IMG/VR virus record: IMGVR_UViG_3300047564_004066
Span: 1-28,365 of that record
Source: a virus
Length of the DNA: 28,365 bases
Direction: 5' to 3' (one strand)
Shown here: one piece after another, positions 2,973 to 17,537 of the stretch
Numbering within the stretch: position 1 is the first letter of the stretch
How the letters are laid out: each line of letters starts with the position of its first letter
Notes under the pieces: generated by a model
The model's input: the letters and a program-made list of their open reading frames with translations, nothing else
Told to the model about the DNA's origin: nothing
The model's database searches: none
Position numbers and translations under genes: made by a program

Positions 2973-3149
2973 ATGAACTATATATCACAAAAGATGTTAT
3001 CTATCATGGAACGCTTATCAGAAATGTTTCCAGGTAGCAGTTATCAAAGCCGTTTAGACAGCTATCTAAACACCAAAGGCATTACCGATGCCGCACAATT
3101 GGAACACTATATCCAACAATTCAATTCTCAAAAGGAATCTTATCTATGA
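2973..3149 (+). CDS. Small protein (58 aa), possibly DUF3563-like
   Basis: ATG preceded by AGGGA 5-6 nt upstream. The 58-aa product begins MNYISQKMLSIMERLSEMFP and continues with a YQSRLDSYLNTKG...DAAQLEHYIQQF segment. The pattern of an amphipathic N-terminal helix followed by xYLxx(x)D/AxxLExxxxxx recalls the small DUF3563 family found in Proteobacteria, whose function is unknown; the match is by eye and uncertain. The stop overlaps the next ATG by 4 nt (ATGA), so both tiny genes are translated together and are credible as genes. Confidence 0.65.
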   Translation: MNYISQKMLSIMERLSEMFPGSSYQSRLDSYLNTKGITDAAQLEHYIQQFNSQKESYL

Positions 3150-4760: not shown

Positions 4761-5462
4761 TTACCTAACTTTTGCCAATTTTAAAAATTCTAAAATTTTA
4801 ATATACATCCAACCAATGTCAAATTCCCAACGTTTCTGACTAAACTTTGCATTAGCGCCATCGGCATGGTGATTGTTGTGTAATTCTTCACCCCCAATCC
4901 AAAATGCAATAGGCCATAAATTACGACTAGTATCATTAGTATTGGTGTTGCGATAACCCCACCAATGGCTTAATCCGTTAATAACTCCGGCGGCAAAGAA
5001 CGGCACCCATATCATTTGAACACCCCACACCAAGAAGCCCCACGGCCCAAATAACAACAGATCTATGATCAACATTAAGAGAATGCCGAGACGGCTGTGC
5101 GGGGTGTATAAGTTTTCTTCAATCCAGTCGTTGGGAGTATCTTTGCTCAGAGACTCAACCATTATACGATCTTTGCTAGCTTTATGATATAAGAATGCTC
5201 CACCAAACAACACACGCCATATGCCGTATATTTGTGGGCTGTGTGGATCGCCTTCTTGATCACTGCGTTGATGGTGCTTGCGGTGTATAGCTACCCATTG
5301 CTTAGTGACCATTCCTGTAGTTAACCATAACCAAAACCGCATAAAGTGATTTACTGCTGGATGAAATTGGACAGCTCGATGTGTTTGGCTTCTGTGCAAA
5401 TACAGAGTAACACATGCTATAGTGATTTGGACCATCACCAAAGTTGCGATTATTATAGTCAT
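4761..5462 (-). CDS. Membrane fatty-acid desaturase (acyl-CoA/acyl-lipid delta-9 type)
   Basis: 233 aa with the three histidine boxes of membrane di-iron desaturases: HRSQTH (23-28), HRKHH (60-64) and HNNHH (195-199), plus an extra His in NGLSHWWGYRN (162-172). Four or so hydrophobic segments surround the boxes. The family inserts a cis double bond into acyl chains using O2 and electrons from ferredoxin or a similar donor. Shorter than many bacterial desaturases (about 300 aa) but all ligand boxes are present, so likely active. In a phage it would alter host membrane fluidity during infection; inference. Start ATG lies 3 nt after the homing endonuclease stop, so both sit in one minus-strand transcript. 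Confidence 0.9.
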   Translation of the reverse strand: MTIIIATLVMVQITIACVTLYLHRSQTHRAVQFHPAVNHFMRFWLWLTTGMVTKQWVAIHRKHHQRSDQEGDPHSPQIYGIWRVLFGGAFLYHKASKDRIMVESLSKDTPNDWIEENLYTPHSRLGILLMLIIDLLLFGPWGFLVWGVQMIWVPFFAAGVINGLSHWWGYRNTNTNDTSRNLWPIAFWIGGEELHNNHHADGANAKFSQKRWEFDIGWMYIKILEFLKLAKVR

Positions 5463-6165: not shown

Positions 6166-6756
6166 ATGAATTATCATGACAAATTAATTTTAACAGATGC
6201 GGATGGAGTTTTGCTTTCCTGGGAATGGGCATTCTCAGTTTGGATGCAAGAACGTGGTTATACACTAACTGCAGATAACAAGAAAAGCTATTATCTGCAT
6301 CATCACTACAACGAGCTAGAAGAAAAAGATGCTAAAAAAGTTGTAAAGACTTTTAATGAATCAGCAGCCATTGGATTCTTGCCTGCGCTACGGGACAGCG
6401 CATACTATGTTAAACGACTGCATGAAGAACACGGATATCAATTCCGTGTCATCACTAGTCTAAGCCTAGATAAAAATGCACAGAAATTACGTGAAATGAA
6501 TTTGCGTAAGATCTTTGGTAATGCTATCGAATCAGTTATTTGCCTAGACACAGGTGCAGACAAGGATCAAGCATTAGAACCCTATCGTGATAGCGGACTA
6601 TGGTGGATTGAAGATAAGCCACAAAATGCCGATGTTGGTTATCGATTAGGATTAAAATCTGTTCTTATTGAACACGGACACAACATGCATCATGTATGCG
6701 AATATCCTGTAGTTAAAGATTGGCGAGAACTTTACAGCATTGTTGTAGGTATATAA
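6166..6756 (+). CDS. HAD-superfamily phosphatase/nucleotidase-like protein (196 aa)
   Basis: I take ATG 6166, because the upstream extension overlaps the divergent homing endonuclease and the conserved part starts here. Motif I is LTDADGVLL (D11, D13), motif II the Thr/Ser in RVITSLS, and motif IV the acidic pair in WWIEDKPQNA. These make a HAD-fold hydrolase resembling 5'(3')-nucleotidase-like phage proteins; substrate unknown. There is no clear Shine-Dalgarno. It lies directly upstream of the riboswitch-TerC unit: the late promoter box overlaps its last codons. Confidence 0.8.
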   Translation: MNYHDKLILTDADGVLLSWEWAFSVWMQERGYTLTADNKKSYYLHHHYNELEEKDAKKVVKTFNESAAIGFLPALRDSAYYVKRLHEEHGYQFRVITSLSLDKNAQKLREMNLRKIFGNAIESVICLDTGADKDQALEPYRDSGLWWIEDKPQNADVGYRLGLKSVLIEHGHNMHHVCEYPVVKDWRELYSIVVGI

Positions 6757-6759
6757 ATA
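6752..6759 (+). promoter_or_regulatory. T4-like late promoter TATAAATA in front of the riboswitch
   Basis: Exact match to the T4 late box. If it covers -13 to -6, +1 is G6765, the first G of the conserved GGGGAGTA of the riboswitch aptamer. Confidence 0.7.
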
Positions 6760-6848
6760 CTCACGGGGAGTAACTAACCAGCAGGGCTGGTTTTATATAT
6801 CGTCAACACGACTAGACTAGTCCGGTATATAGACAAAGAGGTGAGACC
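6760..6848 (+). promoter_or_regulatory. yybP-ykoY-type manganese riboswitch controlling terC
   Basis: The stretch has the conserved 5' GGGGAGTA (6765-6772), a P2 hairpin (AACCAG-loop-CTGGTT, 6776-6792), the L3-type CGTCAA followed by a GACTA-GAC-TAGTC hairpin and CCGG, flanked by TATAT/ATATA pairing, and the conserved 3' GGTGAGACC (6840-6848). This order matches the yybP-ykoY aptamer (as in Lactococcus yybP and E. coli alx and mntP), which binds Mn2+. It sits upstream of a TerC/Alx gene, the usual target. Only 9 nt separate the aptamer from the AAAGGA site and no terminator lies between, so control is probably at translation. CTCAC (6760-6764) could also pair with GTGAG (6841-6845) in read-through RNA, competing with the aptamer. 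Confidence 0.88.
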
Positions 6849-6868
6849 ATAACTTTTAAAGGAAGATT

Positions 6869-7558
6869 ATGGAACTCTTTACACTCCAAGCCCTATGGGC
6901 ATTTCTCGCTATCATTTTGATAGACATTGTATTAGCTGGTGATAACGCTCTTGTTATTGGAATGGCGGCTAATAAATTACCAGACCACTTACGCAAGAAG
7001 GCAATCTTTTGGGGCACCTTTGGTGCTATTGCTATTCGCTTTGTAAGTGTTGCGGCACTGACATACCTATTGATGGTTCCGGGGCTACGTGCAATAGGTG
7101 CCGCAGCATTATTGTGGATTGGTTGGAAACTGGCATTTAACAACGAAGAACATAACGTAGAAGCCAAGGACACTTTCTGGGGTGCTATTGGTACTATTGT
7201 AGTTGCCGATGCTGTCATGGGTATTGACAATGCACTAGGTATTGCCGCAGCCGCAAATGGCAGTTTTATTCTAGTTGCCGCTGGCTTGTTGATCAGTGTG
7301 CCGATTATTTTATTTGGTGCAGGGCTGGTTAGTAAGATACTAGAAAAATATCCAGACACGGTATTTGTAGGTTCATTTGTATTGTTTGCTGTGGCAATGT
7401 TAATGCTAATGAAAGAACCACTAATGGCTGGTTGGTGGGCAGGATTAGTTCCTTGGGCGGCCGTTATTGTACCGTGGGCAGTTGCTCTGGTTATTACTGC
7501 TGTTCAGTATAATAAAGCAAGGCTACACCTACACAAGAAGTTTTTATTTAGAACATAA
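6869..7558 (+). CDS. TerC/Alx/YkoY-family Mn2+ exporter
   Basis: 229 aa, about seven hydrophobic segments. Two signature motifs with acidic residues, DIVLAGDNALVIG (19-31) and VADAVMGIDNALGIAA (about 112-127), are those of TerC-family inverted-repeat transporters. Members preceded by a yybP-ykoY element export Mn2+ or help metallate secreted enzymes. ATG has a good AAAGGA site 5 nt upstream. It is transcribed from a T4-like late promoter through the riboswitch and ends at a strong terminator. Length is close to the YkoY/YceF group (about 230 aa); no nucleotide-binding CBS domains are fused. The gene was probably taken from a bacterium together with its riboswitch. Function as a Mn exporter is inferred from family plus riboswitch. 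Confidence 0.9.
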   Translation: MELFTLQALWAFLAIILIDIVLAGDNALVIGMAANKLPDHLRKKAIFWGTFGAIAIRFVSVAALTYLLMVPGLRAIGAAALLWIGWKLAFNNEEHNVEAKDTFWGAIGTIVVADAVMGIDNALGIAAAANGSFILVAAGLLISVPIILFGAGLVSKILEKYPDTVFVGSFVLFAVAMLMLMKEPLMAGWWAGLVPWAAVIVPWAVALVITAVQYNKARLHLHKKFLFRT

Positions 7559-7584
7559 AAAAGCCCCGAAAGGGGCTTTCTTGT
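7559..7584. terminator. Bidirectional terminator after terC
   Basis: Stem AAAGCCCC-GAAA-GGGGCTTT (7560-7579). On the plus strand it is followed by CTTGTATT; on the minus strand by six T, so it could also end minus-strand transcripts of the thermonuclease gene. Confidence 0.85.
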
Positions 7585-7699: not shown

Positions 7700-8140
7700 T
7701 TACTGGCACCAGCTTTGTTTTGCATCGCCATAGTATTCACGAGCCAAACCGTTGCTGATAAGTCCTTGTCTAATGCTTTGTCCGTTTACCAAGATATCTC
7801 CCAATATACGGCCACCAAACTTATCCCATCCATAGATAATAACTTGGTGCTTAGGGTGGGATTGTAGGGCTTGAGTTGTAAATTTACTCGCCAGTTGCGC
7901 TCGTTGATCTTCTTGTGGACATTGAGCTCTGTGTCCTTTTTCCGGTGTGTCAACTCCGTAGATTCTAACAGCAAGTTCGGGCTTGAGCGGGGCTGGTAGA
8001 AAGGGGGCGGCGATAACAATAGTATCGCCGTCGCTCACTCTAATAATTTTTGCATCATAAGTTGCAGAATTCTTTGGCATCTTGCCTTGTGCAAATGCCA
8101 ACACCGGTAGTGCTAACAATACTAATAAAAACTTTTTCAT
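7700..8140 (-). CDS. Exported thermonuclease (SNase-like, 146 aa)
   Basis: The N-terminus MKKFLLVLLALPVLAFAQGK is a clear Sec signal peptide, with likely cleavage after AFA. The mature part is a staphylococcal nuclease domain: SDGDT (36-40), VRIYGVDTPE (58-67) with catalytic Arg59 and Glu67, and GGRIL (109-113) with Arg111. The mature protein is about 128 aa, small but complete. These enzymes cleave DNA and RNA using Ca2+. Export would put it in the periplasm or outside the cell, unusual for a phage gene: it may degrade DNA of competing phages or released host DNA. TTGGAG site upstream; an AATAAATA late box (8162-8169) precedes it. Confidence 0.9.
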   Translation of the reverse strand: MKKFLLVLLALPVLAFAQGKMPKNSATYDAKIIRVSDGDTIVIAAPFLPAPLKPELAVRIYGVDTPEKGHRAQCPQEDQRAQLASKFTTQALQSHPKHQVIIYGWDKFGGRILGDILVNGQSIRQGLISNGLAREYYGDAKQSWCQ

Positions 8141-12010: not shown

Positions 12011-13213
12011 ATGATAAACAAAGAACCTTTCAAACAATTAATATTAGATTTAAAAGATACTGGAAAATATCGTGTTTTTAATGACATTCTTCGAGAATCC
12101 GGAAAATTTCCAGCTGCTATATGGTACGGGCCTTATAATATTAAGACCATAGTTAACTGGTGCTCTAATGACTATTTAGGTATGGGTCAGCACAAAGTTG
12201 TCTTAGATGCCATGCATACTGCTCTAGACATGACTGGTGCGGGATCGGGAGGTACTCGAAATATTGGCGGTACTAGCCACTATCACGTAGCATTAGAACA
12301 CGAACTAGCTACCTTGCACAATAAATCAAAAGCATTGTTGTTCAGTTCAGCTTATGTTGCCAACGAGTGGACATTGATAGCTCTAAGTAAAATTGTTCCC
12401 AATGTTCAATTTATATCAGATAGCAATAATCACAATAGTTTAATTATTGGAATACAGCATAGTAAAGCAGCTAAACAAATTTTTGAACATAACAATCTAA
12501 ACGACCTTGAAGATAAATTAGCAAACTCTAGACTATCAGGATATACTCCTTGTATAGTATTTGAGAGTGTTTATTCTATGGACGGAGATGTTAGCCCTAT
12601 CAAAGACATTTGCGATCTAGCAGACAAATACCAAGCCATAACCTATATTGACGAAGTACATGCCGTAGGACTTTATGGAACGCACGGCGGTGGCAAAGTT
12701 GAAGAGTTGGGGTTAGAAAGCCGAATTGATATAATCAACGGAACCTTAGGCAAAGCCTTTGGAGTCCAAGGCGGATATATAGCTGCTGATGCAGATGTGA
12801 TCGATGCTATTCGTTCAGTGGCAGCTGGATTTATCTTTACAACTTCGATGAGCCCAGTAACCTGTGCCGGTGCGTTGGCTGCTGTTAAATGGTTAAAAGA
12901 TCATAGCGAAGTTAGGACTAAACATCAAGAACGTGCTGCAAAGTTAAAGCAGTTATTAAAAGAAAATGATCTACCCGTAATGGATATTTCGACTACACAT
13001 ATCGTGCCTGTGTTAGTTGGCGAAGCCAAACGTTGTAAAGCAATGAGTGATACGTTACTCAATGAGTTCAACATATATGTTCAACCAATTAACTATCCAA
13101 CGGTAGATGTAGGAACTGAACGATTGAGATTTGCGCCAACACCATATCACGACGATGCTATGATGAGCGATCTAATTGTGGCCCTTAAGAGTGTTTTTAA
13201 TAGCGTGAATTAA
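12011..13213 (+). CDS. hemA: 5-aminolevulinate synthase (heme biosynthesis)
   Basis: 400 aa, full length for the family. Alpha-oxoamine synthase features: [10 protein letters not shown] (51-60), [13 protein letters not shown] (77-89), [10 protein letters not shown] (214-223, pyridoxal phosphate contacts) and GTLGKAFG (244-251) with the PLP lysine K248, the number used in Rhodobacter ALAS. The C-terminal INYPTV...GTERLR (360-373) is specific to ALAS rather than to biotin-type BioF. The enzyme joins glycine and succinyl-CoA to give 5-aminolevulinate, the first heme precursor, in the C4 pathway of alphaproteobacteria. No Shine-Dalgarno is seen; a GTTAAATA box ends 7 nt before the ATG. The 3' end overlaps the convergent hldD gene by 17 nt. 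A phage-borne copy would raise heme or tetrapyrrole flux. Confidence 0.93.
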
Positions 13214-16146: not shown

Positions 16147-16950
16147 TTATAATCCTTTTTCACAACTTGTAATGTTGTCCCATCCTAGTTTTTCGATGTA
16201 AATTTCTCTCACATGTGTATAACTAGTAATGTCGTTAAACAGAATGTCTTCCGCTGTCTGTGCCCATTCTTTATCAAGCTCTATATTCAATTTATCTTTC
16301 ATGAAAGATTCTGCATACTGATAGTGAGCCATTGGAGTAGGATGATAATCTTCTCTTTTTACTCGAGTTGGAGAAAGTATTCCTACGGGACCTGTTGGCT
16401 GTGTTAGTGTTTTTTTTGGAAGGTTGGATTCTAAAAACCAATTATTGATAGGAGGCAACCAATCAATATCGTCAAAAACTTCTAGATACTTATGTAGTGC
16501 AGAGAATCTTAGAATGTCTTCCCTTAAATTATCCATGCTAAGAAAATGCCAATTGCATCCTACGTTTTCTAAAAGATGTTTACCCAAAGTTACATAGTTG
16601 CAGGTATGCATGACATAGCTACCTTCATGCCAAAATGTTTTTATAAAGCTATGATCATATCCTGAACTTTTGTTAAAGATATCTCCTTTTGGAATCCACC
16701 CTCGAAATATCTTGTCGTCGACCTTGTGTACATCAAATCTATGAGGATTAGTCCATTGGACTATAACATTGTCTCCAGGACCTACGTTATTAAACAAGAC
16801 CAGTTCATTTAGTCTTTCTAATATACCTTGATTGCCAATGCCGCTGTGTGCATAGTTTTTATACTCGTCAAAGCTTCTACCTACTATATTGGCCCAAGTG
16901 GGCCAATGGTATCTAGTAAAACTGCATCCAACTACAAATAATCTGTTCAC
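16147..16950 (-). CDS. SGNH/GDSL-like hydrolase (267 aa)
   Basis: Begins [20 protein letters not shown], where GCSFT is block I of SGNH hydrolases (nucleophile Ser10). HSGIGNQGI (35-43) is block II/III with Gly and Asn, and [13 protein letters not shown] (about 200-212) is block V with the Asp-x-His pair. Members remove acyl or acetyl groups from sugars or lipids; I recall phage proteins of this group of unknown target. Overlaps clpP by 4 nt (16947-16950) and is followed by the cupin gene one nt later. By context it may modify envelope sugars. Confidence 0.75.
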
Positions 16951-17537
16951 TGACGTCTCTCTATGACCTTGTCTACAAGACCATAATCTAATGCTTCTTG
17001 TGCGCTCATGAATGTATCTCGATCCATGTCTCTTTCAAATTCTTGATATGTTTTTCCTTTACTATTGTGTTTCACATATAGTTCAGTTAACGTTGTTTTC
17101 ATTTTGGTAATTTCTTTGTATTGAATTTCAATATCACTTTGCATACCTCGAGCACCGCCACTAGGCTGATGTATCATATGGCGAGCATAGGGCAACATAT
17201 AACGTTTTCCAGCGGCGCCGGCTTGTGCTAGTAGACTGCCCATTGAGCAGGCTTGACCCATAACATAGGTAGCCACATCGGGTTTGATAAACTGCATAGT
17301 ATCGTAGATGCTCATTCCAGCAGTGACTACTCCGCCAGGACTATTAATAAACAAACTAATTTCTTTGTCTGGATTTTCACTTTCTAAAAATAGCATTTGA
17401 GCTACAATCAAATTGGCCATATTATCTTCAACGGGACCGTTGAGCATAATAATCCTTTCTTTGAGCAATCGACTATAAATGTCATAGGCTCTTTCACCTT
17501 TCGAAGTAGATTCAACTACCATTGGTACTAGTGTCAT
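16947..17537 (-). CDS. clpP: ClpP-type serine protease subunit
   Basis: 196 aa, full length for ClpP without propeptide. Catalytic Ser98 in GQACSMGS (95-101), His123 in [10 protein letters not shown] (119-128) and an Asp in the RDMDRDTF segment (about residue 172). NSPGG (65-69) is the oxyanion strand. ClpP forms a 14-mer that needs an AAA+ unfoldase such as host ClpX or ClpA; no unfoldase gene is in the window, so it probably works with the host one. In phages, ClpP could redirect host proteolysis or process virion proteins. AAGGA site upstream, own sigma-70 promoter at 17561-17590. Confidence 0.95.

Follow-up and report, generated by a model that had tools for sequence, protein, structure and literature searches.

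A yybP-ykoY-type riboswitch candidate lacking helix P4 behind a predicted late promoter and ahead of a terC-family gene in T4-related phages

Introduction

The closest described systems are the yybP-ykoY (Mn2+) riboswitches of Rfam family RF00080, such as those of L. lactis yybP and X. oryzae, and the Mn2+ riboswitches of E. coli alx and mntP, which control metal-export genes at the level of translation. The two E. coli switches are cellular, and their platforms differ from the one described below. The solved structures of the class contain a four-way junction that includes helix P4 (PMC11087558), and Mn2+ is known to stabilise helix P1.1 in these riboswitches (PMC6754395).

Phage riboswitches are rare in the literature that we searched, and those found there are mainly glutamine riboswitches. 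They comprise a glutamine riboswitch (in Melnitz, Mosig and pelagimyophages) and a putative psbA element of cyanophages, in a paper that reports no metal-sensing riboswitch (PMC9004378); one survey of pelagimyophages found no riboswitches (PMC7029224). A review of RNA control in T4 noted that no riboswitch had been functionally characterised in that phage and looked hopefully to T4-related genomes for candidates (PMC3014915). A full-text search of open-access papers, which is not proof of absence, returned no earlier report of a phage copy of a yybP-ykoY or manganese riboswitch, in line with an earlier sequence-only reading of the present DNA, which was aware of none. Like the glutamine and psbA elements, the leader described here would be a riboswitch carried on a T4-like phage, and it differs from them in ligand class and target.

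Results

The DNA analysed here (the window) is a 28,365-base IMG/VR virus record. It encodes a virion structural protein (phrog_1645, E 2e-140), a phage ATP-dependent DNA ligase and a phage nucleotide-sugar epimerase, and is thus phage DNA. The gene of interest, at 6869-7558 on the + strand, as are all leader features given below, matches Pfam TerC (E 2.4e-40) and NCBIfam TIGR03717 R_switched_YjbE (191.4 bits, cut-off 134.8), so that the TerC/Alx-family assignment made from the sequence alone holds. By its TIGR03717 match it is a Mn2+ homeostasis gene of the kind controlled by this riboswitch class. It is under purifying selection, with dN/dS of about 0.04-0.09 in most comparisons (dN 0.04-0.13, dS 0.7-3.3). 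In other phages the same leader precedes TIGR03718 R_switched_Alx (three proteins scanned, 388-391 bits); this subfamily, as in E. coli alx, is used by phages L013, L118 and L388, and eight more contigs with the leader before Alx were recognised by eye from the start or the full length of the protein. Both subfamily names refer to their riboswitch. Elsewhere, the window encodes a fatty-acid desaturase (4761-5462), a ClpP-type protease (16947-17537) and, oddly for a phage, a 400-aa class I/II aminotransferase with no PHROG match (12011-13213), which resembles 5-aminolevulinate synthase or 2-amino-3-ketobutyrate CoA ligase.

The leader (6752-6871, followed by ATG) reads TATAAATA, CTCAC, GGGGAGTA, ACT, a hairpin (AACCAGC, AGG, GCTGGTT), TTATATA, T and CGTCAACAC, and continues with a second hairpin (GACTA, GAC, TAGTC), CGG, TATATAG, ACAAAGA, GGT, GAGACC and ATAACTTTTAAAGGAAGATT. 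These parts follow the yybP-ykoY order of L1, P1.2, P2, P3.1, L3, P3.2, P1.2' and L1'. The proposal that a yybP-ykoY aptamer precedes terC is borne out: its named elements lie in order at 6765-6848, where covariance models of bacterial and phage leaders and covariation agree on a short form that lacks P4. The first eight bases of the span proposed earlier, 6752-6759, lie outside the aptamer and form a late-promoter box (TATAAATA). The 5' strand of P1.1 (GG) and loop L1 (GGGGAGUA, or GGGGAGTA in DNA) occupy 6765-6772 and are invariant in 46 aligned copies. P1.2 pairs ACU (6773-6775) with GGU (6840-6842) and appears as AC:GU, GC:GC or GU:AC in relatives. It is followed by hairpin P2 (6776-6792), with five of its seven pairs changed on both sides, and by P3.1 (6793-6799 with 6826-6832), in which all seven pairs are. 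The CGTCAACAC...CGG stretch covers 6801-6825. Within L3, the 5' side, U-CGUCAACAC (6800-6809), contains the invariant A of CGUCA, which by our own matching of numbering we take to be the counterpart of the Mn2+-sensing A41/A48 of the solved structures; hairpin P3.2 (GACUA-GAC-UAGUC, 6810-6822) then leads to the 3' side, CGG (6823-6825). After a 7-nt linker, ACAAAGA (6833-6839), the element closes with GGTGAGACC (6840-6848), that is, the 3' strand of P1.2 and GAGACC. The latter supplies the 3' side of L1 (GAGA) and the 3' strand of P1.1 (CC) at 6843-6848, as judged from the alignment and from the solved X. oryzae riboswitch, in which GAGACC forms the same strand (PMC6754395). The first fold suggested a longer P1, CUCAC (6760-6764) with GUGAG (6841-6845). 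We rejected it, since it would begin ahead of the predicted start site and relatives differ in the five bases that precede GGGG.

Standard pairs make up 98.4% of the pair cells in the 46-row alignment, and both sides change in 16 of 22 pairs; none of 500 shuffles reached these values, and slid controls paired at 26-44%. Covariation is present in each of P1.2, P2, P3.1 and P3.2. The GG:CC pairing of P1.1 is invariant (one G-U), and its 2 bp leave no covariation to score. The signatures of L1 (GGGGAGUA / AGACC) and L3 (CGUCA, CGG) are invariant or nearly so; GGGGAGTA, CGTCA and AGAC do not vary at all.

The sequence-only reading had suggested a search with the Rfam yybP-ykoY model as a check. 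This search gave no RF00080 match in the window, either at the gathering score or at E<=10, and we judge it too insensitive to refute the aptamer. Indeed, the cut-off of 45 bits is also missed by a lactococcal element upstream of a P-type ATPase gene (L360, 38.7 bits), presumably nearly identical to the crystallised L. lactis element, and by the leaders of Polynucleobacter terC genes (26-28 bits), so that the miss reflects a limit of the model; long-form phage leaders scored 18-43 bits. The RF00080 threshold is a detection rule and not a defining feature of the class, and reliance on it would have dismissed the aptamer wrongly. A covariance model trained on bacterial sequences alone, namely 16 terC-family leaders (R1), found a single match in the 28-kb window, at 6765-6848 (47.9 bits, E 3e-10), and a second one built from 42 phage leaders with the window left out (R2) gave 99 bits (E 1.4e-24).

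The element is widespread among viruses. It was found at 60 of 80 viral loci that encode relatives of the window TerC, most of the other 20 being truncated at contig edges or carrying distant terC genes that lack this particular leader. Together with three pattern scans, these loci place the leader on about 92 viral contigs besides the window, several of which are near-identical and thus not independent. A nucleotide search of all phage records gave no match to the element. Among isolate phages, 47 records hold terC relatives, all below 60% identity, and six representative genomes lacked the element, with one match at E 0.26 in an unrelated place. Loose pattern matches in L014, L019 and L036 had no flanking pairing and were discarded as chance. 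The phage set also excludes L360 and L097, whose yybP-ykoY elements are of other kinds. The L097 element (7866-7946, minus strand) is yybP-ykoY-like, seemingly P4-less, lies on a 356-kb viral contig with no TAAATA box, and precedes a short lipoprotein-like ORF, not terC. About 60 nt ahead of terC (at 3001), three related phage contigs (L159, L160 and L161) are missing the 5' two thirds of the aptamer but keep TAAATA, the platform (GACAAAACTGTGATACCATAACTTTTAAGGA) and an intact terC, as a natural deletion derivative.

P4 and the four-way junction are absent from the window and from the other short-form copies, and we therefore count the window element as a variant of the class. In their place stands A-C-N-A-A-G-N, in which C, A, A and G vary hardly if at all, and the R1 alignment deletes P4. 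The long-form phage copies (L144, L165, L167, L176, L178, L179 and L183) and the bacterial copies retain the helix. When 200 Burkholderiales and about 300 Pseudomonadota genomes were searched for leaders without P4, only two matches emerged, both P4-containing and of the Polynucleobacter type. Since some Polynucleobacter leaders before seeming outer-membrane efflux genes have a degenerate P4, we do not claim its loss as unique to phages. Five long-form leaders (L144, L147, L167, L176 and L178) lie 80-110 nt before terC; in these the aptamer is followed by an additional perfect hairpin, CCATAATAT...ATATTATGG, together with a second Shine-Dalgarno region, which makes a different expression platform.

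The loss of P4, with the conserved linker ACAAAGN instead, could alter the junction, and the phage form might thus have kept the fold while sensing another metal or pH. The E. coli alx leader responds to alkaline pH as well as to Mn2+. PMC9603457 hints at this alkaline response. We nevertheless regard a changed signal as unlikely, because the loops that make up both metal sites, L1 and L3, show little or no variation, the invariant sensing A among them.

The box TATAAATA at 6752-6759, which holds the stop codon TAA of the upstream ORF (6754-6756), is of the T4 late-promoter type. T4 late promoters have TATAAATA at -13 to -6, and phage Aeh1 uses CTAAATA (PMC1524935). T4 spacing places the predicted +1 exactly on the first aptamer G (6765). 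Box sequence and spacing relative to GGGGAGTA are shared with the gp55-dependent promoters of T4, from which the locus differs in that the start site would coincide with the first aptamer base. TAAATA stands 4-8 nt (mode 5) before GGGGAGTA in all 53 phage leaders examined, which came from searches that made no demand for this box, versus none of 26 bacterial leaders within 20 nt. The window has fewer TAAATA sites than expected (26 vs 42.6), yet eight of them directly precede genes in the coding orientation (binomial p 2e-5). On the strand of the leader, no sigma-70-like promoter was detected in its vicinity. T4 gp55-like sigma homologues are encoded by 5 of 12 related large contigs (E 1e-5 to 9e-9), the window itself being a 28-kb fragment. 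With a terminator-like hairpin 3' of terC (7560-7579), the locus resembles a single unit of promoter, switch, gene and terminator. The late promoter that would set the RNA 5' end, the missing P4 and the wide distribution had all been overlooked in the sequence-only reading.

At the 3' edge of the aptamer, a hairpin CCAUAA...UUAUGG (6847-6872) pairs the start codon (ATG, 6869) and carries the Shine-Dalgarno sequence AAGGA (6859-6863) in its upper stem and loop. Its 5' end, CC at 6847-6848, doubles as the P1.1 3' strand. The mean length of the outer stem is 5.9 bp (3.8 in shuffles), and relatives keep the hairpin in compensatory forms such as CCATTTTAA/TTAAAATGG; in a few leaders (L075, L120 and L187) the AUG is not paired. 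Over 51 leaders, energy models that include neither Mn2+ nor tertiary contacts gave a mean start-codon openness of 0.13 when unconstrained versus 0.62 with P1.1 and P1.2 enforced. Openness of the Shine-Dalgarno sequence was nearly constant between these computed states (0.67 vs 0.69), so that gating in the model is confined to the start codon. The simplest reading of these computations is a translational switch that would be turned on by Mn2+.

The output might instead be transcriptional, through Rho or pausing. The E. coli mntP riboswitch couples to Rho (PMC11647493). Rho sites are often exposed by translational switches. Against this, the start-codon hairpin covaries and no terminator-like site lies between aptamer and terC. 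We hold a transcriptional output to be about as improbable as a changed signal, and the translational control proposed from the sequence alone, together with its remark on the missing terminator, is probably right. Far less probable is a purely structural 5' element, acting on mRNA stability or as a site for a phage translational repressor: some T4 mRNAs do have structured translation initiation regions (PMC3014915), but this would leave unexplained the conserved unpaired yybP-ykoY signatures, the match to a bacterial riboswitch model and the fact that the targets are exactly the 'R_switched' TerC subfamilies.

Discussion

The comparisons made here support a phage-borne yybP-ykoY-type aptamer before a terC-family gene, probably with a translational output. 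We consider it very probable that T4-related phages have put a Mn2+ riboswitch of this class under their own late promoter, where it controls a terC-family membrane metal protein. With the RF00080 elements of L. lactis yybP and X. oryzae the window element shares L1 (GGGGAGUA / (G/A)AGACC), P1.2, P2, P3.1, L3 (CGUCA...CGG), P3.2, a TerC-family target and P1.1 as the likely switch strand. Unlike them, it has a 7-nt linker for P4, a P1.1 cut to GG:CC at the extreme 5' end, a score below Rfam detection and a phage late promoter. The points against our explanation include the lack of an Rfam match, the absence of P4, a P1.1 of 2 bp in the canonical register, the near-constant openness of the Shine-Dalgarno sequence and the few leaders with an unpaired AUG. 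With alx and mntP of E. coli it would share translational Mn2+ control of a metal-export gene.

Late in infection, the phage sigma factor would start RNA synthesis at the first G of GGGGAGUA (6765); the transcript would thus begin with the aptamer, and P1.1 could only be the GG:CC pair. At low Mn2+, P1.1 would not be held, CC would pair with the GG of AUGG in CCAUAA...UUAUGG and the start codon would be hidden. At high Mn2+, L1 and L3 would dock around the ion, P1.1 would form, CC would be withdrawn and the start codon would open, so that TerC is made, which may then export Mn2+ or load it into secreted proteins. Host manganese thus probably sets the amount of TerC-family protein made late in infection by many freshwater T4-related phages. 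If this is right, phages of abundant freshwater bacteria would sense metal status late and tune metal export or metallation to it.

Polynucleobacter is the only cellular source of a close terC that we found. The TerC tree separates a clade of phage genes and Polynucleobacter from all other sampled bacteria (100/100); within this clade Polynucleobacter nests inside the phage genes and adjoins the long-form phage L183 (98/89), and the window gene groups with phage terC. The tree has a midpoint root, an unsettled bootstrap and a long separating branch and gives no firm direction of transfer; a transfer of terC from phage to Polynucleobacter is possible. R1 matched in 25 of 61 Polynucleobacter genomes. 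The leader of their terC genes (L201-L207, L219) resembles that of the window in gene subfamily (about 63% identity), layout and short distance to the start codon. It differs in keeping P4 and GCAAGACC, in a longer P1.1 and in a sigma-70-like -10 box about 13 nt upstream, with no TAAATA. This related leader might suggest a bacterial contig or prophage remnant whose riboswitch is simply the host's, an idea that is barely credible given the virion protein and phage ligase noted above, the late-promoter box in place of a sigma-70 promoter, the same cassette on 115-357 kb contigs with gp55-like sigma and the grouping of the window terC with phage terC.

A wider proposal, whose chances we see as evenly balanced, is that of a phage-specific subclass of Mn2+ riboswitch: a P4-less aptamer with a three-way junction, which is fused to a late promoter so that transcription begins on its first base, through which late expression reads host Mn2+, and which has been exchanged with Polynucleobacter together with terC. 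The leader of the window is a strong candidate for a riboswitch of T4-related phages, with its occurrence on many other viral contigs and before two target subfamilies. It also offers structural work a minimal P4-less aptamer, presumably for Mn2+. As Rfam scans under-count the class, earlier negative scans of viromes may mislead.

Several further observations were made at related loci. A second yybP-ykoY-type element of Polynucleobacter (L407, L411-L416), with a CCATTTA...TAAATGG hairpin and a degenerate P4, lies before a seeming outer-membrane efflux (TolC-like) gene. At some Alx-type phage loci (L104 3'-ward of 4428, minus strand; L346 after 1296), a short ORF beginning MGTFASLASLPF, of about 45 codons in L104, separates switch and alx, which suggests translational coupling or a leader peptide. 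L104 also encodes, near the riboswitch, a permuted tmRNA of betaproteobacterial type (5059-5383; RF01850, 171 bits), which points to a betaproteobacterial host.
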